From an uncultured Rhodobacterales bacterium (GTDB lineage Bacteria > Pseudomonadota > Alphaproteobacteria > Rhodobacterales > Rhodobacteraceae), in NCBI GenBank assembly GCA_903873585.1, contig CAIQOV010000011.1:1-51601 (forward strand): DNA of 51,601 nt, in the 5' to 3' direction. Positions 16,745 to 51,601 of the stretch are shown here, one piece after another. The notes under the pieces were generated by a model. The model was not told where the DNA came from. It saw only the letters and a list, made by a program, of their open reading frames with translations, and made no database searches. A program made the translations under genes and the position numbers. Position 1 is the first letter of the stretch. Every line of letters starts with the position of its first letter.

Positions 16745-16750
16745 GGGCCA

Positions 16751-16780
16751 AGGCTAGTCAGAATCGCTCATATCCGTCAA
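16751..16780 (-). promoter_or_regulatory. predicted rhaR-STPQU promoter
   Basis: TTGACG (16780-16775), an 18-base spacer containing ATGAGCGATTCTG, and TAGCCT (16756-16751), then 6 bases to the ATG. The same layout is mirrored on the other strand for rhaD. Confidence 0.5.
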
Positions 16781-16859
16781 CAACCAATCGCGTTGCTGCA
16801 TTGCAGTAAGTTTTCTGCACCGCAACATGCAGCATATTGATTGACGATGAGCGATTCTG
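16759..16859. promoter_or_regulatory. rhaR-rhaD divergent operator region, nested inverted repeats
   Basis: Outer pair: CAGAATCGCTCAT at 16759-16771 and its exact complement ATGAGCGATTCTG at 16847-16859. Inner pair: TGCTGCAT at 16794-16801 and ATGCAGCA at 16827-16834. The outer copies lie in the spacers of both promoters. RhaR binding is inferred. Confidence 0.6.
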
Positions 16860-16869
16860 CCCCTAGCCT
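16841..16869 (+). promoter_or_regulatory. predicted rhaD-rhaI promoter
   Basis: TTGACG (16841-16846), a 17-base spacer holding ATGAGCGATTCTG, and TAGCCT (16864-16869). The predicted start is the A of the rhaD ATG at 16876, giving a leaderless message. Confidence 0.5.
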
Positions 16870-16875
16870 TTCGCT

Positions 16876-18945
16876 ATGACCCAAAACATCCTTCTTTCGT
16901 CCCTATGGGACGATGCCGCCGCCGCCCCGCTCGATGAGCCGGGTAAACTGCTGTATCGGTCCAACTTGCTTGGGTCTGACCTGCGGATCACCAATTTTGG
17001 CGGGGGCAACACCTCGGCCAAAGTCACATCGCGCGACCCTTTAAGCGGGGCAGATGTGCAGGTGCTGTGGGTCAAGGGGTCGGGCGGTGATATCGGATCC
17101 ATGAAGCTTGACGGGTTTTCGACGCTGTATATGGACAAGCTGTTCCAACTGCGCGCCCAGTATAAAAGCCTTGATCAAGAAGACGCGATGGTTGACGCGC
17201 TGGGGCATTGTATCTTCAACCTGAACCCCCGCGCCCCTTCGATCGACACGTGGCTGCACGGCTTTGTGCCTGCGACCCATGTCGATCATGTGCATTCCGA
17301 TGCGGTGATTGCCATTGCCGCCGCGCGCGACCAAGTGGCGTTGACAGCGCAGATTTTTGGCGACGAGATCGGCTATTTGCCGTGGCAACGCCCGGGGATC
17401 GACCTTGGGATCAAACTGGGCGAAATGGCGGCGGCCAACCCCAAGATGGTGGGGCTGGTGCTGGGCAGCCATGGGCTGTTCACTTGGGGCGATACGGCGA
17501 AGGCGTGCTACGAACAAACCCTGCGCATCATCAATAAAGCGGCCGTTTGGCTGGATGCCAATTTGAAACGCCCCGCCTTTGACGGCGAGAAAATCAAAAG
17601 CCTGTCGCCCGAAGCGCGCCGCGATGCTGCGCGTCGGTTGATGCCCCTGATACGGGGCCGCATTTCGAAAGCCGAGATGAAGGCAGGCCATTTCACCGAC
17701 GCGCCCGAAGTGCTGGAGTTTGTGAATTCCAACGCTTTGGAAAGCCTTGCCCCCCTTGGCACGTCCTGCCCCGACCACTTCTTGCGCACCAAGATCAAAC
17801 CCTTGATCGTGCCCGCCGACGCCGATGCCGCCACGCTTGATGCGCTGATTGCAGGCTACCGCGCCGATTACGCCGCTTACTACAACCGCTGCAAACACCC
17901 CAATTCGCCGCCCATGCGCGACCCCAATGCCGTGATCTATCTGATCCCCGGTGTGGGTATGGTGTCATTCGCTAAAGACAAAGCCACGGCCCGCATCTCG
18001 GCCGAGTTTTATGTCAACGCAATCAACGTGATGCGCGGCGCTTCGGGTGTGTCGGTCTATCAGGGGCTGGATGAGCAAGAGGCCTTCAACATCGAATATT
18101 GGCTGTTGGAAGAAGCCAAACTGCAACGTATGCCCAAGCCCAAACCGATGCAGGGCCGCGTGGCCTTTATCACCGGCGGGGCGGGCGGGATCGGTTCAGC
18201 CTCTGCCGAACGCCTGCTGCGCGAAGGGTGCAACGTGGTGCTGGCCGATATTGACCAAACCGCGCTGGATGAGGTGACCGCCGGTTTTGCCAAACGCTAC
18301 GGCCGCGACATGGTGCGCGGTGTGATGATGGATGTGACGCAAGAAGCCCAAGTGGTGGCCGCGATTGAAACCACCGTGTCCGAATTTGGCGGGCTGGATG
18401 TGGTGGTGAACAATGCCGGCATCACCTCGGCCGCTGCCGTGGAAGATACCACTTTGGCCATGTGGAACCGCACGATGGATATTCTGTCGACCGGCTATTT
18501 CTTGGTGGGCCGCGAAGGTTACCGCGTGATGAAAACCCAAGCCATCGGTGGGTCGATGGTGTTTATCGCCTCGAAAAACGGGGTTGCGGCATCGCCGGGG
18601 GCTTCGGCCTATTGCACCGCCAAGGCCGCCGAGATTCATCTGGCGCGCTGCATGGCGCTGGAAGGCGCGCCGATGGGCATCAGGGTGAACGTGGTGAACC
18701 CCGACGCCGTGCTGCGTGGATCGAAAATCTGGAAAGGCGAGTGGAGCCAGCAACGCGCCGCCTCCAACAAAATCGCGGTGGACGAGTTGGAAGAACACTA
18801 CCGCAAGCGCAGCCTGCTGCAACGCTCAGTCTTTCCCGAAGACATCGCCGAGGGTGTGTATTTCTTCGCCTCGGATCTGTCGAACAAATCAACCGGCAAC
18901 TTCCTGAACGTGGACGCGGGCAATGCCGTGTCCTTTACGAGGTGA
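16876..18945 (+). CDS. rhaD: bifunctional rhamnulose-1-phosphate aldolase / lactaldehyde dehydrogenase (SDR)
   Basis: 689-residue fusion. Residues 1 to about 415 form a class II aldolase (AraD/FucA-like) domain, with FGGGNTSAK near 41 for phosphate binding, zinc ligands in ATHVDHVHSD (His 135, 138, 140) and GSHGLFTWG (His 199). Residues about 425-689 form a short-chain dehydrogenase with nucleotide motif TGGAGGIG (433-440), NNAG (512-515) and catalytic Ser 566, Tyr 579, Lys 583. The aldolase splits rhamnulose-1-phosphate to DHAP and L-lactaldehyde, which the SDR half oxidises. It is the first gene of rhaDI, 3 bases before rhaI. No ribosome site is visible before the ATG. The same fusion occurs in rhizobia. 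Confidence 0.95.
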   Translation: MTQNILLSSLWDDAAAAPLDEPGKLLYRSNLLGSDLRITNFGGGNTSAKVTSRDPLSGADVQVLWVKGSGGDIGSMKLDGFSTLYMDKLFQLRAQYKSLDQEDAMVDALGHCIFNLNPRAPSIDTWLHGFVPATHVDHVHSDAVIAIAAARDQVALTAQIFGDEIGYLPWQRPGIDLGIKLGEMAAANPKMVGLVLGSHGLFTWGDTAKACYEQTLRIINKAAVWLDANLKRPAFDGEKIKSLSPEARRDAARRLMPLIRGRISKAEMKAGHFTDAPEVLEFVNSNALESLAPLGTSCPDHFLRTKIKPLIVPADADAATLDALIAGYRADYAAYYNRCKHPNSPPMRDPNAVIYLIPGVGMVSFAKDKATARISAEFYVNAINVMRGASGVSVYQGLDEQEAFNIEYWLLEEAKLQRMPKPKPMQGRVAFITGGAGGIGSASAERLLREGCNVVLADIDQTALDEVTAGFAKRYGRDMVRGVMMDVTQEAQVVAAIETTVSEFGGLDVVVNNAGITSAAAVEDTTLAMWNRTMDILSTGYFLVGREGYRVMKTQAIGGSMVFIASKNGVAASPGASAYCTAKAAEIHLARCMALEGAPMGIRVNVVNPDAVLRGSKIWKGEWSQQRAASNKIAVDELEEHYRKRSLLQRSVFPEDIAEGVYFFASDLSNKSTGNFLNVDAGNAVSFTR

Positions 18946-18948
18946 ACG

Positions 18949-20229
18949 ATGAGCGAAGTTTCCGCCGATCTGATCGGAACGCTGAACCATAAAGGCGCTG
19001 AGGCACAGGCCGAAGATTACGCCGCTTTGGGGCGCCAATTGGCACGGCGCGGCGTGGATATAGAGGCTGTCACCCAGCGTGCCATGGCATGGTCGGTGGC
19101 GATCCCGACATGGGGCGTGGGCACAGGTGGTACGCGCTTTGCCCGCTTTCCGGGGGTGGGAGAGCCGCGCCACATTCATGACAAGCTGCAAGATTGCGGT
19201 GTCATTCAGGCGCTGACACGCGGCACCCGCACCGTTAGCCCACATATCCCGTGGGATAAGGTCAGCGATTACAACGCCTTGCGCCAAGAAGCCGCACAAT
19301 ACGGGCTAGGCTTTGATGCGATGAATTCTAACACCTTTCAAGATCAAGTGGGCCAAGCGCGTTCCTACAAATACGGCTCGCTCGCCAATGCCGATAAGAT
19401 GACCCGCGCCCAAGCTGTGGCGCATAATCTGGAATGTATCGAGATTGGGCAAAAGCTTGGATCAACCGCGCTGACCGTTTGGGTCGGCGATGGCACCAAC
19501 TTTGCCGGCCAGCAAAATCTGGGCAAGATGTTTGACGCCTATCTAGAGGCAATGGCGCAAATCTATGCCGGATTGCCCAAAGATTGGACGATGTTCATCG
19601 AACATAAAATGTATGAACCCGCCTTCTATTCGACCGTGATTTCCGACTGGGGATCGTCGCTGATCGCAGCCCAAACCCTAGGGCCGCAGGCCAAATGTCT
19701 GGTCGACTTGGGCCACCATGCCCCCAATACCAACATCGAACAGATTGTCGCGCGGTTGATCCATGTTGGCAAACTGGCAGGCTTTCATTTCAACGATTCC
19801 AAATACGGCGATGATGATCTGGATGCTGGCTCGGTCGACCCGTTCCGGTTGTTTTTGGTCTTTAACGAATTGGTCGATGCCGAACCTAAGGGTCTGAATT
19901 TGGCCTATATGATCGACCAAAGCCACAATATGACCGACCCGATTGAAAGCCTGATGTCATCCGCAATGGAAATTGCGCGGGCCTATGTGCAGGCGAGCTT
20001 GGTAGACCGGAAAGCTTTGGCCGCAGCACAGGCTGAAAATGACGTGCTGGCGGCGCACCGGATGCTGAAAGCGGCCTATATCACCGATGTGTCGCCCATC
20101 TTGGCCGAGGCGCGGGTGCGGCAAGGCGGGGCTTTGGACCCGATCGCTGTCTACCGCGCTTCGGGGTACCGCGCAGCGAAGGGCAAAGAGCGGCCGATGG
20201 TGGTGGGGGCCTCATCCGGCATCGTGTGA
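18949..20229 (+). CDS. rhaI: L-rhamnose isomerase
   Basis: 426-residue cytoplasmic TIM-barrel isomerase converting L-rhamnose to L-rhamnulose, of the Pseudomonas stutzeri-type branch rather than E. coli RhaA. Metal and proton-shuttle residues are visible: FIEHKMYEP (Glu 218, Lys 220), VDLGHHAPN (Asp 253, His 256), GFHFNDSKYGDDD (His 280, Asp 289) and MIDQSHN (Asp 323). The site GGTGAACG precedes the ATG. It lies 3 bases after rhaD and is probably the last gene of that operon, because a hairpin repeat follows its stop. Confidence 0.95.
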   Translation: MSEVSADLIGTLNHKGAEAQAEDYAALGRQLARRGVDIEAVTQRAMAWSVAIPTWGVGTGGTRFARFPGVGEPRHIHDKLQDCGVIQALTRGTRTVSPHIPWDKVSDYNALRQEAAQYGLGFDAMNSNTFQDQVGQARSYKYGSLANADKMTRAQAVAHNLECIEIGQKLGSTALTVWVGDGTNFAGQQNLGKMFDAYLEAMAQIYAGLPKDWTMFIEHKMYEPAFYSTVISDWGSSLIAAQTLGPQAKCLVDLGHHAPNTNIEQIVARLIHVGKLAGFHFNDSKYGDDDLDAGSVDPFRLFLVFNELVDAEPKGLNLAYMIDQSHNMTDPIESLMSSAMEIARAYVQASLVDRKALAAAQAENDVLAAHRMLKAAYITDVSPILAEARVRQGGALDPIAVYRASGYRAAKGKERPMVVGASSGIV

Positions 20230-41382: not shown

Positions 41383-42315
41383 TTAGAAGGCGGTTTTGTC
41401 AGCCCCTTTGAGGCCGAGCATGTCGCGGGCTTCATCGGGGGTGGCGATATCACAGCCCAAGTCTTCGACGATGCGGCGGATTTTGGCGACTTGCTGGGCA
41501 TTCGAGGTTGCCAGTTGGCCGCGCGCGATTTGCAGGCTGTCTTCCAAGCCCACCCGCACGTTGCCGCCCATTTGGCTGGCGGTGGTGGCAAGGCCCATTT
41601 GTGCCCCCCCTGCACCTAAGACGGACCAGCGGTAATCATCGCCAAACAAGCGGTCGGCGGTGCGTTTCATGAAGATCAGGTTGTCAACCTCTGGCCCGAT
41701 GCCGCCCAGAATGCCGAAGATGAATTGGATGAAGATCGGGGCTTTGAACAGGCCAATGTCCATACAGAAGCGCAGGTTATACAGGTGCCCTACATCATAG
41801 CATTCGTGTTCGAACTTGATGGCGTGCGGGGCCAAGGTGTTGGCGACATTGGCAATATCGCGAAAGGTGTTGCGAAAGATATAGGTGTCAGAGTTTTCGA
41901 CATAGTCCTTTTCCCAGTCAAACTTCCACGTGTCGTAGCGTTTGGCCAAGGGGTGGAAGGAAAAGTTCATCGACCCCATGTTGAGCGAGCACATTTCGGG
42001 CGAAAAAGCCAAGGCGGGGGCGATGCGTTCTTCAATCGTGTTTTTCAGCGACCCGCCGGTTGAGATATTCACCACAGCCCCTGTCGCCTGTTTCACCTGC
42101 GGCAGGAAGGCGGCGAAATCTTGCGGGTTGATCGACACGCCGCCATCGGTGGGCCTGCGGGCGTGCAGGTGCAAGATGGCGGCCCCAGCCTCTGCCGCAG
42201 CGATGGCTTGGGAGGCGATGTCTTGCGCGGTGTAGGGCAGCGCGTCAGACATGGTGGGGGTGTGGATCGCCCCTGTGATGGCGCAGGTGATGATCGTTTT
42301 GGGGCGCTTGGCCAT
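41383..42315 (-). CDS. beta-keto acid cleavage enzyme (BKACE / 3-keto-5-aminohexanoate cleavage family), first copy
   Basis: 310-residue TIM-barrel zinc enzyme. Family members react a beta-keto acid with acetyl-CoA to give acetoacetyl-CoA and a new acyl product. Visible parts are ITCAITGAIHTPTMSDALPYT at the start, zinc histidines in AAILHLHARRPTDGG (about 49-51), VVNISTGGS, GMGS-like SLNMGSMNFS, and the catalytic acidic pair in VRVGLEDSLQIARG. The substrate class depends on pocket residues I cannot model. It is the last of ten same-strand genes, 3 bases after the LivM-type permease. Confidence 0.9.
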   Translation of the reverse strand: MAKRPKTIITCAITGAIHTPTMSDALPYTAQDIASQAIAAAEAGAAILHLHARRPTDGGVSINPQDFAAFLPQVKQATGAVVNISTGGSLKNTIEERIAPALAFSPEMCSLNMGSMNFSFHPLAKRYDTWKFDWEKDYVENSDTYIFRNTFRDIANVANTLAPHAIKFEHECYDVGHLYNLRFCMDIGLFKAPIFIQFIFGILGGIGPEVDNLIFMKRTADRLFGDDYRWSVLGAGGAQMGLATTASQMGGNVRVGLEDSLQIARGQLATSNAQQVAKIRRIVEDLGCDIATPDEARDMLGLKGADKTAF

Positions 42316-42318
42316 GAT

Positions 42319-43323
42319 TTAGTCCTTAAAATGAATGCGGTAGCCGACGGGAAACAGCGACCAGCCAAAGCGTTCCGCCGCATAGCCCCACAAGCCCTTG
42401 GGGGCGGCCAGCATCACCACGATGGCTAGGGTGCCCAGAAACAGCAGGTACAGCGTGCCGAAATCGGCCAGAAATTCGCGCAGCAGGAAGTAGACAATGG
42501 TGCCGATGATCGGCCCTTCGATCGTGCCGATGCCGCCGATGACGACGATGAAAATCACAAACGCCGTCCAATCGTTCACGCTGAACGCTGCATCCGGCGA
42601 GACGCGCAGTTTTTGCAGGCTGATCAGCGCGCCGATCATCGCCGTTAGCCCCGCCACCAGCACGTAAAGCACATGTTTCACCCGCCCGATGCGGATGCCA
42701 AGCGAGGTTGATGCCACCTCGCTGTCGCGGATCGCTGTCAGCGCCAGTCCGATGCGCGAGCGCAGCAGCAGATAGACCAGCGCCAAGCAGCCTGCGCCAA
42801 GCGCCAAGGCGAGCCAGAAAATTGACGCCTCGCGCAGCCATTTGCCGCCCAATTCCTTGGTGACAGTGGCAGGCAGGCTGATGCCTGACCCGCCACCAAG
42901 GGCGGTGGCTTGGGCGGCAATCAGGCGAAACACCTCTGCCATGACCCAAGTTCCGATGGCAAAGTAAGCCCCCGCAAGGCGAAACACCAGCGAGGCCACG
43001 GGTATGGCGACCAAGGCCGCCACCAGCCCCGCCAAGGGGATCGCCAGCAAAGGATGCACGCCCAAGAACAGCGCCAAGCTGAAGGTGATATAGCCGCCCA
43101 AGCCGACATAGGCTTGTTGGCCGACCGAGACGAGGCCTGTGTACCCCGCCAGCAGGTTCCACAGGGTGGCAAGGGCGAGGTAGACAGCGAACTCGCCCGC
43201 CAGATGCAAGAATGAGGAACTTGCCCACCACGGCGCTGCGGCCAGCACCGCCAGAAGCAGCAGGGCAAAGACGCCTGCGATGCGGGACGTTATTGTGGCG
43301 CGGGAAATGGTAAACTGCATCAT
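42319..43323 (-). CDS. branched-chain-type ABC transporter permease (LivM family)
   Basis: 334-residue inner-membrane permease with about nine hydrophobic segments. LivM marks are YTGLVSVGQQAYVGLGGYITF, GAYFAIGTWVMAEVFRLIAAQ, the loop RIGLALTAIRDSEVASTSLGI and GGIGTIEGPIIGTIVYFLLREF. The ATG overlaps the LivH-type stop (ATGATG). It works with the LivH-type permease and the two ATPases upstream. Confidence 0.93.
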   Translation of the reverse strand: MMQFTISRATITSRIAGVFALLLLAVLAAAPWWASSSFLHLAGEFAVYLALATLWNLLAGYTGLVSVGQQAYVGLGGYITFSLALFLGVHPLLAIPLAGLVAALVAIPVASLVFRLAGAYFAIGTWVMAEVFRLIAAQATALGGGSGISLPATVTKELGGKWLREASIFWLALALGAGCLALVYLLLRSRIGLALTAIRDSEVASTSLGIRIGRVKHVLYVLVAGLTAMIGALISLQKLRVSPDAAFSVNDWTAFVIFIVVIGGIGTIEGPIIGTIVYFLLREFLADFGTLYLLFLGTLAIVVMLAAPKGLWGYAAERFGWSLFPVGYRIHFKD

Positions 43324-44183
43324 CCGTCCATCCTTGGAAACAAGCCGCGCGGTTTGATGGCCAAGATCAGCAAGAACGCCACATGGCCCGCCAGTATCTG
43401 CCAGCCTGGGTCAATCGCGGCACCCAAACCTTGGGCCACACCCAAGATCACCCCGCCCGCCAGCGTGCCCCACAGGTTGCCGAGGCCACCGATGATCACC
43501 GCTTCAAAGCCGAAAATCAGCCGACCCGGCCCCATGAACGGGTCAAAGTTTGACCTGATCGCCAAGAACACCCCCGCAATCGCCACCACGCCTAGGCACA
43601 ACGCCATGGCCCAAGCGTAAACGCGGCGGCGGTCTAGGCCCATCAGCTCGGCAATCTCGGCATCGTCAGATGTCGCGCGAAAGGCGCGGCCGAGCGCAGT
43701 TTTGTAGAACATGAATTGCAAGGCCGCGATGACAGCCACGGCGGTGGCAAACATCAGCGCGGGCAACAGGCCGATTGACAGGCCGCCAAAGCTGAGCGAG
43801 GCGGTTTCTAACACCCCCGCATCCAGTTTGCGGCTGTCAGCGGTAAACACGGCGAGCAATCCGTTTTGCAAGATCACCGACAGGCCAAAGCTTACCAGCA
43901 AGGGCGGCAGCAGATCGCCGCCCAAAGTGCGGTTCAAGATGCCGCGTTGCAGGGCATAGCCAAAGGCCGCCATCACCGGCACAACAAAGATAAGCGCCAA
44001 AAGCGGCGGCAGGCCCGACAGCCTGATCACCTCCATCGCGATATAGGCGGCCAGCACGATCAGATCGCCGTGCGCGATGTTGACCAAGCGCATCACGCCA
44101 AAGATCAGCGACAGGCCTGCGGCAAACAGCGCATAAAGCCCGCCAACCAGAACGCCTTGCAAAACTATGTTGATCAAATCCAT
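43320..44183 (-). CDS. branched-chain-type ABC transporter permease (LivH family)
   Basis: 287-residue inner-membrane permease. It shows GLYALFAAGLSLIFGVMRLVNIAHGDLIVLAAYIA near the start, the conserved LivH opening, the loop RAFRATSDDAEIAELMGLDRRRVYAWAMALC, and GFEAVIIGGLGNLWGTLAGGVILG. The frame continues to 44291, but MDLINIVLQGVLVGG at 44183 is the family start; the upstream part lies in the LivF-type gene, whose stop is 1 base before this ATG. Confidence 0.93.
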   Translation of the reverse strand: MDLINIVLQGVLVGGLYALFAAGLSLIFGVMRLVNIAHGDLIVLAAYIAMEVIRLSGLPPLLALIFVVPVMAAFGYALQRGILNRTLGGDLLPPLLVSFGLSVILQNGLLAVFTADSRKLDAGVLETASLSFGGLSIGLLPALMFATAVAVIAALQFMFYKTALGRAFRATSDDAEIAELMGLDRRRVYAWAMALCLGVVAIAGVFLAIRSNFDPFMGPGRLIFGFEAVIIGGLGNLWGTLAGGVILGVAQGLGAAIDPGWQILAGHVAFLLILAIKPRGLFPRMDG

Positions 44184-44184
44184 C

Positions 44185-44886
44185 TTAGGTTCCGAAATAA
44201 GCGGCTGAAATCGCGTCGCGGCTGTGATCTTGGGGCGCACCCGCCAGCGACACCCGCCCCTCGACCAGACACAGGAATTGGTTGGCGGCACTTAGGGCGC
44301 GGGTCACGTCTTGTTCGACCAAGATCGCACTCATCCCCTGCCCCGTGATTTTGGGCAGTTGGGCGTAGATGTCTTTGATCACAATCGGCGCAAGGCCAAG
44401 GCTCAGTTCATCAAACAGCACGAGATCAGGGTTTGACATCAGCGCTCGCCCAATCGCCACCATCTGTTGTTGCCCGCCAGAAAGCGAGGTGGCGGGTTGA
44501 TGGCGTTTTTCTTGCAGAATGGGGAACAGGTCATACAGGCGTTGCAACCCCCAAGGGCCAGAGCGGCCGATTTGCCCGCCCAAGATCAGGTTTTCCTCGA
44601 CCGACAGCGATTTGAACAGGCGGCGGCCTTCGGGCACAAGGGCTATGCCAAGTGCTACAGTTTGCGCACCGCGCAGGCCCGTGATGTCACGGCCCCGCCA
44701 TGTGACACGGCCTGCCTTGGGCGATACCAAGCCGCAGATCGACTTGAGCAGCGTTGATTTGCCCGCCCCATTGGCCCCGATCAGTGCGAGCACCTTGCCC
44801 GGTTCCAAGGCCAGCGACACGCCGTGCAAGGCCTTGAAATCGCCGTAGAAGCTTTCGATGTTTTCCACCACCAACCCGTCAGACAT
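44185..44886 (-). CDS. branched-chain-type ABC transporter ATPase (LivF family)
   Basis: 233-residue ATPase. Walker A is GANGAGKST (about residue 38), signature LSGGQQQMVAIGRAL, Walker B LVLFDELSLGLAP, and the H-loop region ILVEQDVTRAL. The PEGRRLFKSLSVEENLILGG segment is typical for LivF. ATG 44886 overlaps the LivG-type stop by 8 bases. A frame extension to 44952 lies within that gene and is rejected. Confidence 0.93.
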   Translation of the reverse strand: MSDGLVVENIESFYGDFKALHGVSLALEPGKVLALIGANGAGKSTLLKSICGLVSPKAGRVTWRGRDITGLRGAQTVALGIALVPEGRRLFKSLSVEENLILGGQIGRSGPWGLQRLYDLFPILQEKRHQPATSLSGGQQQMVAIGRALMSNPDLVLFDELSLGLAPIVIKDIYAQLPKITGQGMSAILVEQDVTRALSAANQFLCLVEGRVSLAGAPQDHSRDAISAAYFGT

Positions 44887-45601
44887 GCTCTTCGGCCCCC
44901 ATATAAACCGACCGCACGTCTTTTGAGGCGAGAACCTCGGCCGGTGGCCCATCGGCGATTTTCACGCCAAAATCCACCACAACCAACCGCTGCGCGACCG
45001 ACAGCAGGGCGTGCACCACGTGTTCGATCCACACAATCGTCACCCCCGTGGCGTGCACTTCGCGCACAGCATCCAGCAGCGCTTGGCATTCGCGTTCGGT
45101 CAAGCCACCCGCGATTTCATCCAGCAGCAGCAGCGCAGGGTCGGTTGCCAAGGCCCGCGCCATCTCTAACCGTTTGCGCTCTAGCAGGGTCAGCGACCCC
45201 GCGCGGTCATTGGCGCGCTTGGCAAGGCCCGTCAGGCGCAACACCTCGGCCGCGCGGGCGTGGGGGGCTGTGGCATTGGGGCGGCCAAAGGTCGCACCGA
45301 CAAGGATATTTTCAAACACCGTCATCCCATTGAAAGGGTGCGGGATTTGAAAACTGCGCGAAATGCCCATGCGGCAGCGGGTTGACGCATCAAACCGCGT
45401 TACATCTTGGCCCGCAAACACCACGCGCCCTGCATTGGGCTGCACCGTGCCTGCGACCAAGTTGAACAGCGTCGTCTTGCCCGCGCCATTCGGCCCCAAA
45501 ATCCCCACGATCTCACCCTGCGCCACGCGAAGTGAGATATCGTCGGTGACTTTCAAAGCCCCATAGCTTTTAGACAGGTTTTCCAGCGATAACAGCGTCA
45601 T
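44879..45601 (-). CDS. branched-chain-type ABC transporter ATPase (LivG family)
   Basis: 240-residue ATPase. Walker A is GPNGAGKTTL, Walker B LLLLDEIAGGLTERE, and ISRSFQIPHPFNGMTVFENILVG is the usual LivG part. The signature reads LTLLERKRLEMARAL in place of LSGGQ or LSYGQ, a departure seen in some LivG-type subunits. It follows the binding-protein gene after a strong intercistronic hairpin. Confidence 0.93.
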   Translation of the reverse strand: MTLLSLENLSKSYGALKVTDDISLRVAQGEIVGILGPNGAGKTTLFNLVAGTVQPNAGRVVFAGQDVTRFDASTRCRMGISRSFQIPHPFNGMTVFENILVGATFGRPNATAPHARAAEVLRLTGLAKRANDRAGSLTLLERKRLEMARALATDPALLLLDEIAGGLTERECQALLDAVREVHATGVTIVWIEHVVHALLSVAQRLVVVDFGVKIADGPPAEVLASKDVRSVYMGAEEHV

Positions 45602-45618
45602 GCGCCACCCTTTGACAG

Positions 45619-45643
45619 GCTGGGGGCCAAGGCGGCCCCCAGC
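45619..45643 (-). terminator. intercistronic hairpin after the binding-protein gene
   Basis: Perfect 10-base stem GCTGGGGGCC / GGCCCCCAGC with a 5-base loop in the 49-base gap. No T-run. The position relative to the binding protein mirrors the rhaS-rhaT hairpin. Confidence 0.65.
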
Positions 45644-45650
45644 GCATTGA

Positions 45651-46922
45651 TCAGGCCAGCAGTTTCAATTCACCCGTCAGGGGCAATTGCGGGTTCTGCT
45701 TATTGTTGACGATCTTCAGTTCCAGCTTGCCATCGACCCGCTGCCACTGACCACCCGCCAAGGGCGTTTTGGTCACGTTCTTGACCGGACCATTGGCCCA
45801 GTTGATCGGCCCAACCATGGTGTTCAGGTTGGTGGCGGTGATCGCCTCCATGATCGAGGCTTTATCCGTCAAATCAGCGGCGCGTTTGATCACGTCTAGA
45901 CCCACCTCAAAGATCGCATGGCTAAAGCCCAGCGTCGATGTCCACGGCTTGCCGGTATCGGCCACATAGGCCGCGCCAAAGTCTTTGGCCGAAGCGCCGG
46001 TGAGCGAGGAGGAATAGGGGTAATCCGGTGTCCACCACACTTCGGTCGTCAAGCCATCGCCCCGATCGCCCAGCGCATCCACCGATGACGGGAACAGCAG
46101 CGCCTTGCCGATGGTCACAACCTTGGGCGCAAAGCCCTGTTGGGCGGCTTGGGCCCAGAAGGTCGCGAAATCGGGCGGGATCATCACGCCGGTCACAATC
46201 TCACAGCCCGCCGCTTTAAAGGCCGCAATCTGGCTGGTGAAATCGTTGTTCATCGGCTGGTAGCGGCCCGGATCGGTCAGCTCGTACCCAGCGGCGGCCA
46301 AGGGGCCGGGCAGGCCCAGTTTGGCATCACCCCAAGCGTTGCCATCCGCATCATTGGGGAACAGCCCGCCGACCTTTTTGGCCACACCAGAGGCATCCCA
46401 GATCGCGGTGAAGTTCGCGATGATATCCTCTAGCCCCCAGAAGAAGTGGTAGGTGTAGTTAAAGCCGACATCCGGCACACCGCCACGGCCAAAGAAATAG
46501 GGCTGCCACGGCGCGTTGGTCGAAATGCAGGGGATCTCGTTCAACTCGCACTGGTCGGCCACGGGGTTGGTCGTGTCGGGCGTGGCATGGGTCAGCATCA
46601 GGTTGATGCCTTCGTTCAAGATCAAATCCTGCGCCACTTCCGCTGCGCGGTTGGGGTTGGATTGGCTGTCTTTGGTGATGATTTCAATCTGCACCGGTTT
46701 GCCATTGTTGGTCATACCGGCCAGCGAGTCTTTCAGGCCAGCCAAAATCCAATCTTGTGCTTCGCCAAAGCCTGCCAAGGGGCCGGTGGTGGGGGCGACA
46801 AAGCCAATTTTGAACACGCCGTCCTGCGCCAAAGCGCGGTTGGCGCGCAAGATCGCGGGGGCGGCGATAAACCCCGTTGTGGCGGTGATGAACTTGCGCC
46901 GTGTGTAAGTGAAGTGAGCCAT
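45651..46922 (-). CDS. ABC transporter substrate-binding protein (LivK/Peripla_BP_6 type), TAT-exported
   Basis: 423-residue periplasmic binding protein. The N-terminus TRRKFITATTGFIAAPAILRANRALA is a twin-arginine signal (RRKFI) with cleavage likely after ALA. The mature chain starts FKIGFVAPTTGPLAGFGEAQ, the opening strand of type I receptors, and has LMLTHATPDTTNPVADQCE and WTPDYPYSSSLTGASAKDF. GGGAGGA lies before the ATG. The Liv class binds amino acids but also aromatic acids and amides, so the ligand is open. Confidence 0.92.
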   Translation of the reverse strand: MAHFTYTRRKFITATTGFIAAPAILRANRALAQDGVFKIGFVAPTTGPLAGFGEAQDWILAGLKDSLAGMTNNGKPVQIEIITKDSQSNPNRAAEVAQDLILNEGINLMLTHATPDTTNPVADQCELNEIPCISTNAPWQPYFFGRGGVPDVGFNYTYHFFWGLEDIIANFTAIWDASGVAKKVGGLFPNDADGNAWGDAKLGLPGPLAAAGYELTDPGRYQPMNNDFTSQIAAFKAAGCEIVTGVMIPPDFATFWAQAAQQGFAPKVVTIGKALLFPSSVDALGDRGDGLTTEVWWTPDYPYSSSLTGASAKDFGAAYVADTGKPWTSTLGFSHAIFEVGLDVIKRAADLTDKASIMEAITATNLNTMVGPINWANGPVKNVTKTPLAGGQWQRVDGKLELKIVNNKQNPQLPLTGELKLLA

Positions 46923-47060
46923 TCTTTCCTCCCAGAGTGATGGTTGCCCCGCCGGTCTTTTGCTTGGCCGTTGGGGATAGGGTTAAACTGTCGTCTCCTG
47001 CGCATGGGCGGGGCGTTGCCCGCTGCGTAGGGTCTTTGGGGTTGGGGGGGTGGTTTTCAT

Positions 47061-47984
47061 CTACCCCTCCAACAGCTTATCTAGGGCGAGCAGGTGGGAA
47101 ACCACCTTGGCGCGCAAGGTTTGTGCTTGATCGGGTGTCCAGTCATGAAACCCTTGGCCCGCTTTCATGCCCAAGCGCCCCTCTGCCACCATCTGCGCCA
47201 AAAGGGGCGATGGGCCGGGGCGGTGTTCTAGATCGGCCAGCACGGTGTTGTGGATGTCGAGCGTCAGATCGGTTCCCACCAGATCGGCGTTTTCCAGCGG
47301 CCCCAGCACCGCAAGCCTACGGCCAAAGCTGGCTTTGATCACGGCATCGACCGCCTTGGCATCGCAGATACCGCGTTCCACCAGCGAAACAGCCTCGCGC
47401 CACAGCGCGTGTTGCAGGCGGTTGCCGATGAAACCGGGCACATCCTTTTCGACCCGCACCGGGGTTTTGCCCGCCCCCGCCAACAGGTGCATCGCAGCCT
47501 CCATCGCGGCTTGCGATGTGTCCGCCGTGCGTATCACCTCAACCAGCGGAATAAGATGCGGCGGGTTCCACCAATGGGTGCCAAGCGCGCGGGACTTATC
47601 GGCCAAACCTTCCATGATCTGGGTGATCGGCATGACAGAGGTGTTGGAACACAAGATCGCCGTCGCAGGCGCTGCCGCTTCGATCTCGGCAAAGATCGCC
47701 TGTTTCAGGGCCATCTTTTCAGGGGCGGCTTCAAAGACAAAAGCAGCGTCTGTGACGGCGGCGGCGATACCGTCAGCGACAGTGATGCGGGCCAAGATTT
47801 GCGCGATGTCGCCCTCGGCCACGCCCATCAGCCGCAAACTGTCAGTGACACGCGCCATCAAACCGGCCCGCGCTTCGGCCACAGGGTCGGTCACGCAAAC
47901 CGCATGGCCTGCACGCGCCAAGGTCAGGGCAATGCCATGCCCCATCAACCCCGCCCCGATCACCGCGATGCGCACGTTTGTCAT
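47061..47984 (-). CDS. 3-hydroxyacyl-CoA dehydrogenase family protein (NAD-dependent)
   Basis: 307-residue Rossmann enzyme. The NAD motif GAGLMGHGIALTLARAG starts at residue 9. The catalytic part HWWNPPHLIPLVEVI holds the His of the HCDH family (HFFNPP type), preceded by the SNTSVMPITQI loop. The C-terminal domain has DVPGFIGNRLQHALWREAVSLVERGI. The single-domain, short form resembles L-carnitine or L-gulonate dehydrogenases as well as 3-hydroxybutyryl-CoA dehydrogenase, so it may act on a free beta-hydroxy acid. ATG 47984 follows the SDR stop by 1 base. Confidence 0.88.
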   Translation of the reverse strand: MTNVRIAVIGAGLMGHGIALTLARAGHAVCVTDPVAEARAGLMARVTDSLRLMGVAEGDIAQILARITVADGIAAAVTDAAFVFEAAPEKMALKQAIFAEIEAAAPATAILCSNTSVMPITQIMEGLADKSRALGTHWWNPPHLIPLVEVIRTADTSQAAMEAAMHLLAGAGKTPVRVEKDVPGFIGNRLQHALWREAVSLVERGICDAKAVDAVIKASFGRRLAVLGPLENADLVGTDLTLDIHNTVLADLEHRPGPSPLLAQMVAEGRLGMKAGQGFHDWTPDQAQTLRAKVVSHLLALDKLLEG

Positions 47985-47985
47985 C

Positions 47986-48780
47986 TCATCCCGCCGTATA
48001 GCCGCCATCGGCGTAAAGAATGTGGCCCGTGTAGAAATCTGACGCGCGTGAGGCTAAGAACAACAACGGCCCCGCCAGATCTTCCGGCTCGCCCAAGCGC
48101 CCCTTGGGCACCCGCGCCAAAAAGCCCGCACGCACGGCTTTGGCGTTGTCGGTATCGTCAAACATCCATGCGGTAAGCGGCGAGCGGAACACCGTCGGCG
48201 CAATTGCATTCACCGTGATCCCCGTCGGCCCCAATTCGCAGCCCAAGGCCTTGGTCATCCCGTCAACCGCCGCTTTGCTGGCGCAATAGGCGGTGTAGCC
48301 CGCTGGGTGGCCCAACAACCCCCGCGCCGAGGATACCAGCACGATTTTGCCGCCCCGCCCATGCGCCTTCATCTGCACAGTGGCGGCACGGGCCAAAAGC
48401 CAAGACTGGGTCACATTGGCATCCATCACGGCCAGAAAGGTTTCCGGTGCCATATCGTCAATCTTGGCAACCTTGTTCATGCCAGACGCGACAACCAAAA
48501 TGTCCAAACCGCCAAACGCCGCCACCGCCGCAGCCACCAAAGCGGTGCAAGCGGTTTCGGAATCGGGCCTTGTGTTCACCTCCACCACCTCGGCCCCGCC
48601 GGCGCGGCATTCGGCGGCGATGGCGGCAAGCTCGCTCGCCTTGCCAGCGGCCAGCACCAAGCGGCACCCCGCCCCCGCCAGAACCCGCGCAGCAACCGCC
48701 CCAAAGGCACCAGACGCGCCGGTGATCAGCGCCACTTTGCCTTTGACATCGAACATATCCAACGGGTTTGGAAGGCTCAT
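47986..48780 (-). CDS. short-chain dehydrogenase/reductase (SDR)
   Basis: 264-residue classical SDR. The dinucleotide motif is TGASGAFGAVAA (about residue 20). The usual NNAG is changed to VASGMNK. Catalytic residues are Ser in VLVSSARG and Tyr-x3-Lys in YTAYCASKAAVDGM; the C-terminus ends DGGYTAG. It probably oxidises or reduces a hydroxy group in the pathway. The ATG overlaps the cupin stop by 4 bases. Confidence 0.93.
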   Translation of the reverse strand: MSLPNPLDMFDVKGKVALITGASGAFGAVAARVLAGAGCRLVLAAGKASELAAIAAECRAGGAEVVEVNTRPDSETACTALVAAAVAAFGGLDILVVASGMNKVAKIDDMAPETFLAVMDANVTQSWLLARAATVQMKAHGRGGKIVLVSSARGLLGHPAGYTAYCASKAAVDGMTKALGCELGPTGITVNAIAPTVFRSPLTAWMFDDTDNAKAVRAGFLARVPKGRLGEPEDLAGPLLFLASRASDFYTGHILYADGGYTAG

Positions 48781-49127
48781 GCTGGCACCTTTGCAGGATA
48801 AGGGATCACGACCAGCATTTTGCAGACATGGTGCGACCGGTTGATAATTTCGCGCACTTCACCGGGGGCAATCGTGACAGAATCCATCGGCCCCAGCACG
48901 CTTTCCTGACCTGCGACGATCAGCGTCATCGAACCTTCCAGAACGACATAAACCTTCTCGAACGGGGTCGAATCCGGCCCTGCCCCGCCACCGGGTAAAA
49001 ACTGCGAAAAGCCCAGCCATTGGTTGGTTGGCCCGCCCGCCTCAAACCCCTGCAAGCGCAGCCCCACCACACCGCGATGGTTGGGGGCGTCGTAGGGGGT
49101 TGCGTCTTCAAAGCGTTTCACCAGCAT
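48777..49127 (-). CDS. small cupin-domain protein
   Basis: 116-residue single-domain cupin. Motif 1 is weak (GPDSTPFEKVYVVLEGSMTLIV, Glu present, His pair absent), and motif 2 reads GPMDSVTIAPGEVREIINRSHH. The strand pattern and length fit a jelly-roll cupin, either an isomerase-like enzyme or a binding protein. AAAGG lies upstream. Its stop overlaps the SDR start, so the two are coupled. Confidence 0.85.
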   Translation of the reverse strand: MLVKRFEDATPYDAPNHRGVVGLRLQGFEAGGPTNQWLGFSQFLPGGGAGPDSTPFEKVYVVLEGSMTLIVAGQESVLGPMDSVTIAPGEVREIINRSHHVCKMLVVIPYPAKVPA

Positions 49128-49174
49128 GGGTCTTGGCCTTTCCAGTTCATCTTGGTCTAACGACTTCGGGGTGT

Positions 49175-49194
49175 GCGGGGGCCTAGACCCCCGC
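49175..49194 (-). terminator. short hairpin between the cyclase and cupin genes
   Basis: GCGGGGG / CCCCCGC stem with loop CCTAGA in the 75-base gap; no T-run. Probably an mRNA-processing or stabilising element inside the operon. Confidence 0.4.
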
Positions 49195-49202
49195 TTGAAA
49201 GT

Positions 49203-50039
49203 TTAAAACGCCTCGCCTGCTTCGATCCGGTAGCCTTGGCTTTTGTCGATCATCGCCACCAAGCGGATGATACACCCATCGCCGCGATCCCAGTTCCACG
49301 GGAAGAAGGCAAAGGTGCAGCGTTTGCCCGTCACCGCATCCAAATCACCGCCGACGTTTTCGATGCCCAAGATGCCCGCCTTGAACAGGATTTGGTGGAC
49401 AGGCTCCCAATCGGGGAAGTCTTCGGCCCAATCGCGCCCACCGGACCATTCGAAATACTCTTTCTTCAGATGCGGCAGCAGCGGGCCGTTGCGTTGCGGG
49501 CCGATGGCCGTGGCCAAGGGATGGTCATTGGCTTGGGTGTCATGGCCGACAACCTTAACCCCTTTCTTAACCATCCATTCGCCAGCCGAGGGCACAAAGC
49601 CCGGGCAATAGGCAAAGTAATCGCCGTCTTCATATTGCTTGTGCCAGCCTGTGTTGATGATGAGCACATCACCGGGGCGGATGGCGTGGCCGCAGGCTTT
49701 TTCCAGATCCTCGCCGGTAATCGGCTCCCACTTCTTCTTGGGCAAACTGACCACAATCCCCGTGCCAAAGAAATGCGGCAGGGGCACTTCGTTGATAAAG
49801 GGGGTGCCTTGCACCACATGGGCGGGGGCGTCGATATGGGTGGTGGCGTGCATCGTAGTGGTGATGCGCTGGCTTAGAACGCCGGATTTCGCCATGTAAT
49901 GGATGCGTTCGATCTGCACATCCTGAAAATACGGCCAGTTGGGGTGCTGAAACCCGAAACGGTGCGAGAGGTTGTAAAACTCTAGCCCCATCGTGTTGTC
50001 CAAATTGCCTTGGAATTCGATGCCGCGCACAGTGACCAT
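49203..50039 (-). CDS. cyclase family metal-dependent hydrolase
   Basis: 278-residue enzyme of the cyclase/kynurenine formamidase (PF04199) family. The metal motif HATTHIDAPAHV (about residue 63; family HxGTHxDxPxH) has Thr for Gly. Other parts are LIINTGWHKQY, the WMVKKGVKVVGHDTQANDHPLATAIGP segment and the C-terminal GIENVGGDLDAVTGKRCTFAFFPWNW. Members open amides, esters or lactam-like rings. GGAGG lies 7 bases before the ATG. It is the first gene of the minus-strand operon, divergent from IclR. Confidence 0.92.
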   Translation of the reverse strand: MVTVRGIEFQGNLDNTMGLEFYNLSHRFGFQHPNWPYFQDVQIERIHYMAKSGVLSQRITTTMHATTHIDAPAHVVQGTPFINEVPLPHFFGTGIVVSLPKKKWEPITGEDLEKACGHAIRPGDVLIINTGWHKQYEDGDYFAYCPGFVPSAGEWMVKKGVKVVGHDTQANDHPLATAIGPQRNGPLLPHLKKEYFEWSGGRDWAEDFPDWEPVHQILFKAGILGIENVGGDLDAVTGKRCTFAFFPWNWDRGDGCIIRLVAMIDKSQGYRIEAGEAF

Positions 50040-50136
50040 TCTTAAACCTCCCCGATCATTGGCTGGCCTTGGCCAAGCCTTAAAGCTTGCGCCCTGCCTC
50101 CCGCAGGGTGCCGTCTTGCATGACGATACATATGCA

Positions 50137-50147
50137 CCGCATTGTGG
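50137..50147. promoter_or_regulatory. IclR operator copy 1
   Basis: CCGCATTGTGG, a palindrome with one mismatch, between the divergent hydrolase and iclR genes. It is 10 of 11 identical to copy 2. Confidence 0.5.
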
Positions 50148-50179
50148 TCAAATGATTCCCGCGCTATGACGGGGCTGTA

Positions 50180-50190
50180 CCGCATTGCGG
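50180..50190. promoter_or_regulatory. IclR operator copy 2
   Basis: CCGCATTGCGG, a perfect palindrome about one centre base. Centres of the two copies are 43 bases apart, about four helical turns, so dimers could bind on the same face. Confidence 0.5.
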
Positions 50191-50227
50191 GCTGGAATCG
50201 ACGCGCAGGGTCTGGCATAGGGCGGCC

Positions 50228-50971
50228 ATGAAGGATGATGTGAAACCCAAAGACGGCATTCAGGTGATCGCACGCGCCGCCGCCGTGCTGCGCGCGTTGA
50301 AAGATTGCCAGACGGGGCTGAGCCTTGGGCAAATCGCCGACAGGGTCGCCCTGCCCCGTTCGACCGTGCAGCGCATTGTTGCGGCCTTGATCGACGAACG
50401 CCTGCTTGTCGCCACCCGTGCCGCTGGCGTGCGTTTGGGGCCTGAGCTGCAAGCCTTGGCCGAAGCCGCGCGCACCAACACCGTGGATTTGTGCCGTCCG
50501 CATCTGGCCGCCCTGATGGCCGCCACGGGCGAGACGGTTGATCTGTCGGCCCTGCGCGGTGGTCAGATGGTGTTCTTGGATCAGGTGCAAGGCAGCCACC
50601 GCCTGCGGGCAGTTTCGTCTGTCGGAGAGCATTTCCCCCTGACCACCACCGCCAATGGCCGCGCTGCTTTGTCGATCTTGCCCGAGCAGGATGCCATCGA
50701 CCTTGCCGCAGCCGAATGGGGCCAAGGGCTTGGCAACTTGCCCGTGCTGCAAGCCCGCCTCGCCTTGGCGCGCAAACTGGGCTTTGCCGAGGATAACGAC
50801 GACCATACCGAGGGTATTTCCGCCATAGGCATCGCCTTTCGCGACTTTAGCGGCGAGGTGTTTGCCATATCCCTGCCCATCCCGACCTCGCGCTTTGCCG
50901 AGCGGCGTGCGCTGGTCACCTCCGCCCTTTTGGCGGTCAAGGCCGATCTGGAGGGGACGCTGGCAGGCTAA
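50228..50971 (+). CDS. IclR family transcriptional regulator
   Basis: 247-residue regulator. The N-terminal winged helix has AAAVLRALKDCQTGLSLGQIADRVALPRSTVQRIVAALIDERLL (residues 18-60). The C-terminal IclR effector domain (about 75-245) has GETVDLSALRGGQMVFLDQVQGSHRLRAVSSVGEHFPL and the family end GISAIGIAFRDFSGEVFAISLPIPTSRF. It is divergent from the hydrolase operon with two palindromes between, so it likely controls that operon and itself. It is tail to tail with the second BKACE, 2 bases apart. Confidence 0.93.
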   Translation: MKDDVKPKDGIQVIARAAAVLRALKDCQTGLSLGQIADRVALPRSTVQRIVAALIDERLLVATRAAGVRLGPELQALAEAARTNTVDLCRPHLAALMAATGETVDLSALRGGQMVFLDQVQGSHRLRAVSSVGEHFPLTTTANGRAALSILPEQDAIDLAAAEWGQGLGNLPVLQARLALARKLGFAEDNDDHTEGISAIGIAFRDFSGEVFAISLPIPTSRFAERRALVTSALLAVKADLEGTLAG

Positions 50972-50973
50972 TG

Positions 50974-51601
50974 TCATGCCAGCCCCAGCATTGCGCGGGC
51001 CTGTGCCCAAGTGGCGACAGGGCGTTGGTATTTCTCGCACAAATCCGCAGCACGCCTCACAAGCGCAGCGTTTGACGGCGCCAAGCGGTCGCGGTCTAGG
51101 CGGACGTTATCCTCCATCCCGGTGCGGGTATGGCCCCCCTTGGCGATGGCCCATTCGTTGATGGTTAGTTGCGCGGGGCCAATGCCTGCCGCGCACCATA
51201 GGGCCGTGGGGGCAAGGCGGTTTAGGGTTTCGATGTAAAAGTCAAAGATCCGCTCATCCGCGGGCATGGCGTTTTTGACACCCATGACGAACTGTACATA
51301 AAGCGGGTTCGACAAGCGCCCATCGCGCGCCATCGTGGCGGCTTGCACGATATGCGACAGGTCGAAGCATTCGATTTCGGGCTTCACATTGTATTTCAGC
51401 ATTTCCGACGCCAGCCAATCGACCAGATCGGGTGGGTTTTCGTAAACGCGAGTGGGAAAGTTGTTTGACCCCACCGACAGGCTGGCCATATCGGGGCGCA
51501 GGGGCAGCATCCCACCCCGCGCCGCGCCAGCGCCTGACCGCCCGCCCGTGGACAGTTGAATGATCATACCGGGGCAATGGGTCTTTAACCCCTCAACCAA
51601 G
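50974..51601 (-). CDS. beta-keto acid cleavage enzyme (BKACE) family, second copy, N-terminus outside window
   Basis: 209 codons of the C-terminal part; the gene runs off the right edge. It shows IIQLSTGGRSG, ASLSVGSNNFP, NPLYVQFVMGVKNAMPADERIFDFYI, GIGPAQLTINEWAIAKGGHTRTGMEDNVRL and the end VATWAQARAMLGLA, matching the family core with the Met-Glu-Asp catalytic region. It differs strongly from the copy at 41383 (QLSTGG for NISTGG, GIGPAQL for GAGGAQM, no FEHECYDVG segment), so it should use a different substrate class. It is convergent with iclR. Confidence 0.9.
   Translation of the reverse strand, partial: LVEGLKTHCPGMIIQLSTGGRSGAGAARGGMLPLRPDMASLSVGSNNFPTRVYENPPDLVDWLASEMLKYNVKPEIECFDLSHIVQAATMARDGRLSNPLYVQFVMGVKNAMPADERIFDFYIETLNRLAPTALWCAAGIGPAQLTINEWAIAKGGHTRTGMEDNVRLDRDRLAPSNAALVRRAADLCEKYQRPVATWAQARAMLGLA

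Follow-up and report, generated by a model that had tools for sequence, protein, structure and literature searches.

A conserved ten-gene operon in an uncultured Rhodobacterales bacterium, predicted to import and reductively degrade phloroglucinol, beside a hydroxyquinol-type operon

Organization of the locus

We report the analysis of a gene cluster located at one end of a 51,601-nucleotide stretch of DNA, hereafter the window, which corresponds to positions 1-51601 of contig C11 (CAIQOV010000011.1) in the genome of an uncultured Rhodobacterales bacterium, assembled as 3.2 Mb in 55 contigs. Ten genes lie on the minus strand between positions 41383 and 50039; a gene for an IclR-type regulator diverges from them and a second gene of the BKACE family, convergent with the regulator gene, lies beyond it. 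This layout had been proposed in an initial annotation made from the sequence alone, and was borne out in positions and gene families by a check of the open reading frames and by Pfam, which confirmed the families of all ten genes. The mostly overlapping or 1-3 base joints reported at that stage were also found: with better starts, six of the nine joints are tight (-8 to +3 bases), the other three measuring 49, 75 and 138 bases. Contig C11 stops within the second BKACE gene, whose product is short of roughly 65 N-terminal residues. The genes, with the functions proposed for their products, are the following:

49203..50039, minus strand: hydrolase of the cyclase family (PF04199, Pfam 112 bits), proposed dihydrophloroglucinol cyclohydrolase (DPGC type)
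48777..49127, minus strand: Cupin_2 protein (Pfam 39 bits), a conserved fifth component
47986..48780, minus strand: short chain dehydrogenase/reductase (SDR), best PDB match 5g4k/5g4l, proposed phloroglucinol reductase
47061..47984 (or from 48008), minus strand: 3HCDH-type dehydrogenase (HCDH; Pfam 3HCDH_N 177 bits), proposed (S)-3-hydroxy-5-oxohexanoate dehydrogenase (TfD)
45651..46922, minus strand: periplasmic binding protein of a Liv-type ABC importer (PF13458, 137 bits)
44879..45601, minus strand: LivG-type ATPase (PF00005, BCA_ABC_TP_C)
44185..44886, minus strand: LivF-type ATPase (PF00005, 110 bits)
43320..44183, minus strand: LivH-type permease (PF02653, 91 bits)
42319..43323, minus strand: LivM-type permease (PF02653, 103 bits)
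41383..42315, minus strand: BKACE1, predicted 3,5-dioxohexanoate:acetyl-CoA cleavage enzyme (NCBIfam equivalog NF053538)
50228..50971, plus strand: IclR-type regulator, divergent from the operon (NCBIfam IclR-family models)
50974..51600, minus strand: BKACE2, predicted 3-oxoadipate:acetyl-CoA cleavage enzyme, 5' end missing (NCBIfam NF053568)

Conservation and distribution of the operon

Adjacency of these genes by mere coincidence, an outcome that would have undone the initial annotation, is not what the comparison of genomes revealed. Among the best 80 of 532 stretches encoding BKACE1 relatives, taken with flanks of up to 10 kb, the order of all ten genes and the IclR gene is preserved, with identities of at least 45%, in 51 loci: 48 plain ones and three (L015, L016 and L068) with something extra. 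The remaining 29 loci comprise 11 with BKACE1 alone, eight of which are informative because L007, L043 and L063 have less than 0.5 kb of upstream sequence, and 18 that are incomplete, rearranged or truncated at a contig end. A gene for an MBL-fold hydrolase, absent from the window operon, is inserted in some of the operons (L089:12912-13895 and L090:15400-16368).

The nearest BKACE1 loci belong to metagenome genomes of Rhodobacteraceae, at 98% identity in a Pseudorhodobacter metagenome-assembled genome and 95% in two others, and full or rearranged operons are also present in Rhizobium, Devosia, Roseibium and Leucothrix loci and in a metagenome-assembled genome of Geminicoccaceae. The distribution is scattered: within the order of the window the operon is an accessory trait, the cyclase being detected (E 1e-80) in 17 of 196 evenly sampled genomes, the source genome included.

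Assignment of the enzymes

Assignment of the two BKACEs to subfamilies, a check suggested in the initial annotation, was run with the NCBIfam models and placed BKACE1 in NF053538 and BKACE2 in NF053568, two unlike enzymes as had been stated. The match of BKACE1 to NF053538 (3,5-dioxohexanoate:acetyl-CoA acetone transferase) scores 524 bits, with a cut-off of 430, and spans positions 1-310 of 310; it agrees with the earlier proposal of a cleavage giving acetoacetyl-CoA. 3,5-Dioxohexanoate, or triacetate, is the last C6 intermediate of reductive phloroglucinol degradation. Lysine fermentation was considered and rejected, since BKACE1 and BKACE2 reach only 223 and 179 bits, respectively, on the Kce model, whose cut-off is 382.

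The best PDB match of the SDR is 5g4k/5g4l (185 bits, the next protein scoring 142), which we take to be the phloroglucinol reductase structure cited in PMC10470551, its PDB label reading only "oxidoreductase, short chain dehydrogenase/reductase family protein". When the source genome was searched with the 5g4k sequence, the window SDR came first of 31 matches, with 183 vs 113 bits and 43% identity. The two proteins are alike in the GxNK and PTVFRSxLTxWM loops; the latter, a substrate-loop motif, recurs in 61 of 62 SDR orthologues and is not found in three other SDRs of one alignment. The SDR, closest to a presumed phloroglucinol reductase, most likely reduces its substrate rather than supplying one of the one or two oxidations first proposed.

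In the cyclase, the triplet W35-P36-Y37 is part of a WPYF motif found in all 62 orthologues, W35 and Y37 being invariant in 19 aligned sequences. The enzyme also contains the motif HxTHxDxPxH, presumably the metal-binding histidine motif, and its PDB matches include kynurenine formamidase and isatin hydrolase; the nearest family by name search is arylformamidase (45.5 bits, cut-off 223). In CsDPGC, the enzyme of Clostridium scatologenes, Trp20 and Tyr22 replace two residues of isatin hydrolase (PMC10470551). W35 and Y37 match these two, in the numbering of that paper, and W20 and Y22 of the Acetoanaerobium homologue, on which, together with the published numbering, the comparison rests, since the isatin hydrolase matches start no earlier than position 37.

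The initial annotation had the cyclase-family enzyme open a lactone or amide ring. In a scheme along these lines the imported compound would be a beta-hydroxy acid or a lactone or amide, such as 3,5-dihydroxyhexanoate lactone; the cyclase would open the lactone, SDR and HCDH would oxidise two hydroxyls, and BKACE1 would cleave the resulting 3,5-dioxo acid. The substrate assigned to BKACE1 would fit such a scheme, the cyclase family does include amide hydrolases (the kynurenine formamidase and isatin hydrolase of the PDB), and BKACE1 also occurs with other cyclase-family genes outside the operon. However, the cyclase carries the Trp/Tyr pair of a C-C hydrolase, 5g4k is by far the closest of the solved SDRs to the window SDR, itself the best match in its own genome, and in Acetoanaerobium the same family set lies beside putative flavonoid-cleavage genes. 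We regard the lactone or amide scheme as quite improbable. Ring opening by the cyclase-family enzyme is retained from it; the ring is most likely carbocyclic, and opened by a retro-Claisen reaction.

In the HCDH, S116, H137 and N188 correspond by motif, with a constant offset of 6, to the catalytic residues Ser122, His143 and Asn194 of CsTfD (PMC10470551). These residues are general to the 3HCDH family, and the agreement, consistent rather than diagnostic, is a weak test. Oxidation by the HCDH is retained from the initial annotation. TfD lacks the CoA-binding Lys56 and Asn221 of 3-hydroxybutyryl-CoA dehydrogenase (PMC10470551); in the window HCDH the Asn221 region looks replaced (FGRRLAVLGP), while the Lys56 equivalent can be placed only inexactly. 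A carnitine pathway was rejected, two carnitine dehydrogenase models giving the HCDH 159 and 140 bits, with cut-offs of 592 and 414, respectively.

Comparison with known systems

The initial annotation knew of no described pathway with this gene set. One is found in the reductive phloroglucinol pathway: the anaerobic cluster of C. scatologenes, encoding PGR, DPGC, TfD and TAL, has been reconstituted by Zhou et al. 2023 (PMC10470551), who also report the four-gene cluster in marine alpha- and gammaproteobacteria, Mesorhizobium and Bradyrhizobium. Compared by published residues, the C. scatologenes cluster and the window are alike in all four enzyme families and in the predicted intermediates, and share both the Trp/Tyr pair of DPGC and the Ser/His/Asn residues of TfD. 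They differ in the transporter, a Liv-type ABC importer in the window and "a major family transporter" in C. scatologenes; in the divergent IclR gene and the conserved cupin of the window, the word "cupin" occurring 0 times in the main text of PMC10470551; in the BKACE, which is of another subgroup, with Ile for Trp; in the SDR, which lacks the TR(S/N) motif; and in the absence of thiolase and CoA-transferase genes from the window operon. An exact match to a characterised pathway, named at the outset as a finding that would overturn the annotation, was largely obtained, for the four families and not for the reductase TR(S/N) and the lyase Trp; because these two are missing, we class the operon as a variant of the phloroglucinol pathway.

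A related set is found in the anaerobe Acetoanaerobium noterae (L087), where cupin, SDR, HCDH, cyclase (with W20 and Y22) and BKACE genes lie together with a chalcone isomerase domain (195.6 bits), a DAPG-hydrolase-like gene (22.1 bits, marginal to the cut-off of 22.7) and an FMN reductase; this set looks like one for flavonoid cleavage, the product of which would be phloroglucinol. Rv1714-Rv1716 of Mycobacterium tuberculosis are reported to be about 40% identical to a Clostridium polyphenol cluster (PMC5894108) and adjoin, by locus number, the cupin Rv1717 (PMC7873859). The likeness of the mycobacterial set to the window is one of gene names and descriptions, and the best NCBIfam model of the window cupin is named beta-D-galactosidase MYCTU. 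By gene name, Rv1714-Rv1717 presumably represent the same SDR, HCDH, cyclase and cupin set, and we know of no importer or BKACE at that locus. The deoxyribonate pathway (PMC6365646) has a similar logic of lactonase, SDR and BKACE, with a different substrate; HCDH, cyclase-family enzyme and cupin, present in the window, are not among its described genes, and it was rejected as a match.

The proposed pathway

We read the ten genes, with a probability of roughly 0.8, as an inducible operon for the uptake and oxygen-independent catabolism of phloroglucinol (1,3,5-trihydroxybenzene), or of a compound yielding it. From the observed family and subfamily assignments, gene order, co-inheritance and operator conservation, we infer the reactions in the source organism, the specificity of transport, the direction of regulation and the role of the cupin as follows. 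The Liv-type importer would bring phloroglucinol, or a precursor, into the cell; the SDR, probably assisted by the cupin, would reduce phloroglucinol to dihydrophloroglucinol, and the cyclase-family metalloenzyme would convert this to 3-hydroxy-5-oxohexanoate by a hydrolytic retro-Claisen ring opening. The HCDH-type enzyme would then oxidise 3-hydroxy-5-oxohexanoate to triacetate, and BKACE1 would turn triacetate and acetyl-CoA into acetoacetyl-CoA and acetoacetate. The latter could be activated by a CoA-transferase encoded elsewhere in the genome: a pair of subunit genes is present on contig C48 (251 and 152 bits), and no acetoacetyl-CoA synthetase over the cut-off was found in the source genome (best score 268.6, cut-off 520.9).

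Various observations weigh against this reading. The NADPH motif TR(S/N) of characterised reductases is missing from the window SDR, where the site reads AGK; the cofactor site is TGRN in 5g4k/5g4l and AGK or AGN in the operon SDRs; of 61 aligned sequences, 52 have N at the last position, 8 have K and 1 has S. R71-P72, invariant in the operon SDRs (61 of 61), stands where 5g4k/5g4l has ADP, and R71 may take over the NADPH role of the missing motif. Trp16 of TAL, which replaces Glu14 of Kce, is likewise not found, BKACE1 reading TGAI, with Ile, where the Acetoanaerobium enzyme reads TGAW; BKACE1 belongs to another, longer BKACE subgroup and is only 31% identical to that Trp-containing enzyme. 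Furthermore, BKACE1 lies outside the operon in 8 of the 80 loci, counting those with enough upstream sequence, and the four of these that were scored (L028, L061, L078 and L085) all pass NF053538, so that a match to this model is by itself no proof of phloroglucinol. The nearest named relative of the HCDH is a dehydrogenase of vitamin B6 degradation (4om8, 192 bits; NF042925, 238 bits, cut-off 500), and the predicted cyclase fold, with a pLDDT of 54, was of too low quality to be used. Finally, the Acetoanaerobium SDR lacks the PTVFRS loop, which tells against simple equivalence, and two cyclases of Rhizobium ACO-34A, 40 and 50% identical to that of the window, lack the Tyr: similar gene sets can thus differ.

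In L028, L061 and L078, the BKACE1 relative lies near another cyclase-family gene, 25-32% identical to the window cyclase; L028 also has TRAP transporter genes and a CoA-transferase near it, and the L061 and L078 genomes have no orthologues of the cyclase, cupin or SDR. Such a context suggests a second route to triacetate.

The cupin and its association with the reductase

The occurrence of the cupin and SDR genes was surveyed in 85 named loci (L007-L091), with cuts of 44% identity and 60% coverage. One or the other was above the cut in 65 loci and both in 63; in all 63 the two genes are adjacent, on one strand, with the cupin first. The other two loci are distant ones: L087 has both genes, adjacent, with the SDR below the cut, and L091 has a 42% cupin that is separated from the SDR. 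In three loci (L013, L064 and L069) the operon lacks cupin and SDR, and the pair is found, still adjacent, at another place on that contig. These three genomes have all of cyclase, cupin and SDR, while orthologues of each were absent, at the E-values used, from all seven genomes tested in which BKACE1 lies outside such an operon (L028 left out): the three genes are co-inherited.

The best NCBIfam model of the cupin, the one named beta-D-galactosidase MYCTU, scores 102 bits, below the cut-off of 175. This name, the only functional one seen for the family, apparently derives from a mycobacterial homologue that was refolded for its assay. The conserved gene neighbourhood speaks for a part in phloroglucinol catabolism rather than for a beta-D-galactosidase. 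In the alignment the cupin lacks the usual histidine metal ligands, and its fold model (pLDDT 84) matches TM1459 and the polyketide cyclase RemF, a match that does not settle its function. As a guess from the pairing, the cupin would act with the reductase, perhaps on tautomers.

The same four reactions might start from an imported substrate other than phloroglucinol itself, such as a substituted phloroglucinol (acylated, carboxylated, a glycoside or a phlorotannin fragment) or another cyclic 1,3-diketone. In that case phloroglucinol would be no more than an intermediate, the substituent being removed by the cupin or by a variable neighbour such as the MBL-fold hydrolase. The name of the closest cupin model, the MBL gene inserted in the L089 and L090 operons and the difference of the SDR NADPH motif from known reductases all point in this direction, and a dedicated importer would seem odd for a small phenol. 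Nevertheless, SDR and 5g4k have the PTVFRS loop in common, the window operon has no MBL gene, and Pfam gave no deacylase or decarboxylase family match among its ten genes. We consider such a substrate unlikely, and phloroglucinol uptake remains the preferred reading.

Importer, regulator and putative operator

The families of all five genes of a full Liv-type importer, as originally described, were confirmed by Pfam. Among PDB entries, only 4ey3/4eyg/4eyk (39 bits) is related to the binding protein at E 1e-5 or better; we take it to represent aromatic-acid-binding proteins of Rhodopseudomonas palustris, a weak hint as to the ligand. The regulator is closest to the NCBIfam model NF045644 (98 bits, below the cut-off of 350), and its gene stands in front of the cyclase gene in the 51 full-order loci. 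Two copies of a motif were recognized between them:

50176..50190, minus strand: putative IclR operator site 1, CCGCAATGCGGTACA, in the IclR-cyclase intergenic region
50133..50147, minus strand: putative IclR operator site 2, CCACAATGCGGTGCA, overlapping the spacer of a predicted promoter whose hexamers run from 50151 to 50123

Allowing up to two mismatches, at least one site was detected in 53 of 59 orthologous intergenic regions, window included, and at least two in 40, against an average of 0.35 of 59 for letter-shuffled regions, a contrast inflated by the relatedness of the species and by the motif having been drawn from the same regions. Repression by the IclR protein would probably proceed through the two CCGCAATGCGGT-like sites that precede the cyclase gene. 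No copy of the motif was seen ahead of the hydroxyquinol operon in L105.

BKACE2 and the neighbouring hydroxyquinol-type operon

BKACE2 scores 354 bits, though truncated, on NF053568 (3-oxoadipate:acetyl-CoA acetyltransferase; cut-off 350). Its full-length counterpart in the sister genome G001 reaches 487 bits on this model and 159 on the triacetate one (cut-off 430). In G001 the order is LysR, a divergent Fe-dependent alcohol dehydrogenase (Fe-ADH, maleylacetate-reductase-like), FAD aromatic monooxygenase, intradiol dioxygenase and BKACE2, followed by IclR and the divergent operon; G012 and G014 have the same order as far as the stretches reach. The source genome (G000) has the same upstream hydroxyquinol genes as well, where its contig C9 starts. 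The start of C9 (C9:5-562) and the end of C11 overlap by 558 bases of BKACE2, at 92.5% nucleotide identity, and the contig break therefore lies inside this gene; the mismatch may stem from assembled strain variants or from a BKACE2 copy of recent origin.

The five best PDB matches of the sister dioxygenase score 322-240 bits; three are named hydroxyquinol or chlorohydroxyquinol dioxygenase, one is PnpC and one is unspecific, while catechol dioxygenase scores 132. The Fe-ADH is 48% identical to the annotated maleylacetate reductase of Aminobacter MSH1. Since the dioxygenase is of the hydroxyquinol type and BKACE2 passes the 3-oxoadipate model, this operon most likely takes hydroxyquinol to 3-oxoadipate: FAD monooxygenase, hydroxyquinol 1,2-dioxygenase and a putative maleylacetate reductase would act in turn, and BKACE2 would convert 3-oxoadipate and acetyl-CoA to succinyl-CoA and acetoacetate.

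The initial annotation left a choice between two keto acids in series and two substrates. That the two BKACEs serve one pathway in series, or that BKACE2 is a second triacetate enzyme, might be suggested by the neighbourhood of BKACE2, IclR and operon, kept in four genomes of the genus and in the Tabrizicola locus L016. Yet the sister BKACE2 passes the 3-oxoadipate model and falls far below the triacetate cut-off, the gene comes last in a hydroxyquinol operon that has a LysR gene of its own, and no IclR operator motif was detected before that operon in L105. Moreover, BKACE2 (at least 55% identity) was detected in only one of the 80 BKACE1 loci, that of Tabrizicola, most flanks reaching only 0.5-2 kb beyond IclR, and 70-75% homologues are carried by operon-less stretches of five other genomes of the genus. 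We find this alternative hardly credible: action in series was dropped in view of the gene neighbourhood in the sister genomes, where BKACE2 closes a separate operon, and of the two options that of two substrates stands.

Adjacency of BKACE2 to the operon was seen only in four genomes of the genus and one Tabrizicola locus. Of 16 genomes of the genus searched, four have BKACE2 (at least 93%) adjoining IclR and operon, and five carry the 70-75% homologue on stretches (4.9-19.9 kb) in which, with the cuts applied, neither operon nor hydroxyquinol genes occur. Within the order, a hydroxyquinol dioxygenase (E 1e-70) is found in 29 of the 196 genomes and accompanies the cyclase in three, one being the source genome, where 2.5 are expected for independent occurrence; in the remaining two they are separated by 0.28 Mb or lie on different contigs. 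No general link of the two operons was thus found in the order, co-occurrence being no more frequent than chance. Sixteen relatives were also read upstream, one over 3.9 kb only: a 38-42% intradiol dioxygenase occurs within about 10 kb in four, three of which are of one genus, the monooxygenase (74%) in one, and neither in 11. The pairing of reductive and oxidative trihydroxybenzene operons is lineage-specific, not general.

The 38-42% hydroxyquinol-like intradiol dioxygenase lies about 3-9 kb beyond IclR in L132, L135, L136 and L137, beside a TRAP transporter gene in the two loci scanned with Pfam, L132 and L135. Elsewhere in the window, at 13298-20229, is an unrelated set of L-rhamnose catabolism genes (bifunctional rhamnulose-phosphate aldolase/dehydrogenase, rhamnose isomerase and a sugar ABC ATPase, below the cut-offs of the models).

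Comparable associations exist on plasmids. In Rhizorhabdus wittichii RW1 (pSWIT02, Swit_5054-5065) an IclR gene diverges, as in the window, from cyclase, cupin, SDR, HCDH and DUF849 genes, the BKACE passing NF053538 with 505 bits, and the cluster adjoins hydroxyquinol 1,2-dioxygenase, Fe-ADH and FAD monooxygenase genes, like those next to the window. It differs in three respects: CoA-transferase genes take the position of BKACE2, the stretch lacks an ABC importer, and the monooxygenase is only 28% identical. On a plasmid of Aminobacter MSH1, a phloroglucinol-type cluster adjoins hydroxyquinol-pathway genes, in other gene versions than those of the window.

A more speculative view, which we hold to be possible but rather doubtful, is that of a two-armed polyphenol island acting on a single plant or algal polyphenol, whose 1,3,5-trihydroxybenzene ring would be handled by a reductive, oxygen-independent arm and whose 1,2,4-trihydroxybenzene ring by an oxidative one. 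Both arms would end in a BKACE of their own, and therefore neither keto acid would need its own CoA activation; the cupin would be a so far unrecognised fifth enzyme, working with the reductase on the keto tautomer of phloroglucinol, and its homologues annotated as beta-galactosidases would be misnamed.

Significance

The pathway, and its occurrence in alphaproteobacteria, are already in print. What was not found in the open-access papers searched is a conserved cupin paired with its reductase, a conserved putative IclR operator of a phloroglucinol operon, a link of a Liv-type importer to the pathway, or an island pairing reductive and oxidative trihydroxybenzene pathways, each ending in its own BKACE; nor did we find there a paper on a phloroglucinol degradation gene cluster in Rhodobacteraceae, although such absence, as for the cupin, is weak evidence.

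With the reading proposed here, an operon of "substrate unknown" becomes a testable phloroglucinol route, in hosts that are commonly expected to attack aromatics with oxygenases. The pairing of cupin and reductase offers a concrete handle on a poorly named protein family, and the twin BKACEs would neatly illustrate how a single enzyme family can close two ring pathways at one locus. Phloroglucinol is a building block of the phlorotannins of brown algae and forms the A-ring of flavonoids; a dedicated importer in Rhodobacteraceae would therefore bear on the recycling of that carbon.

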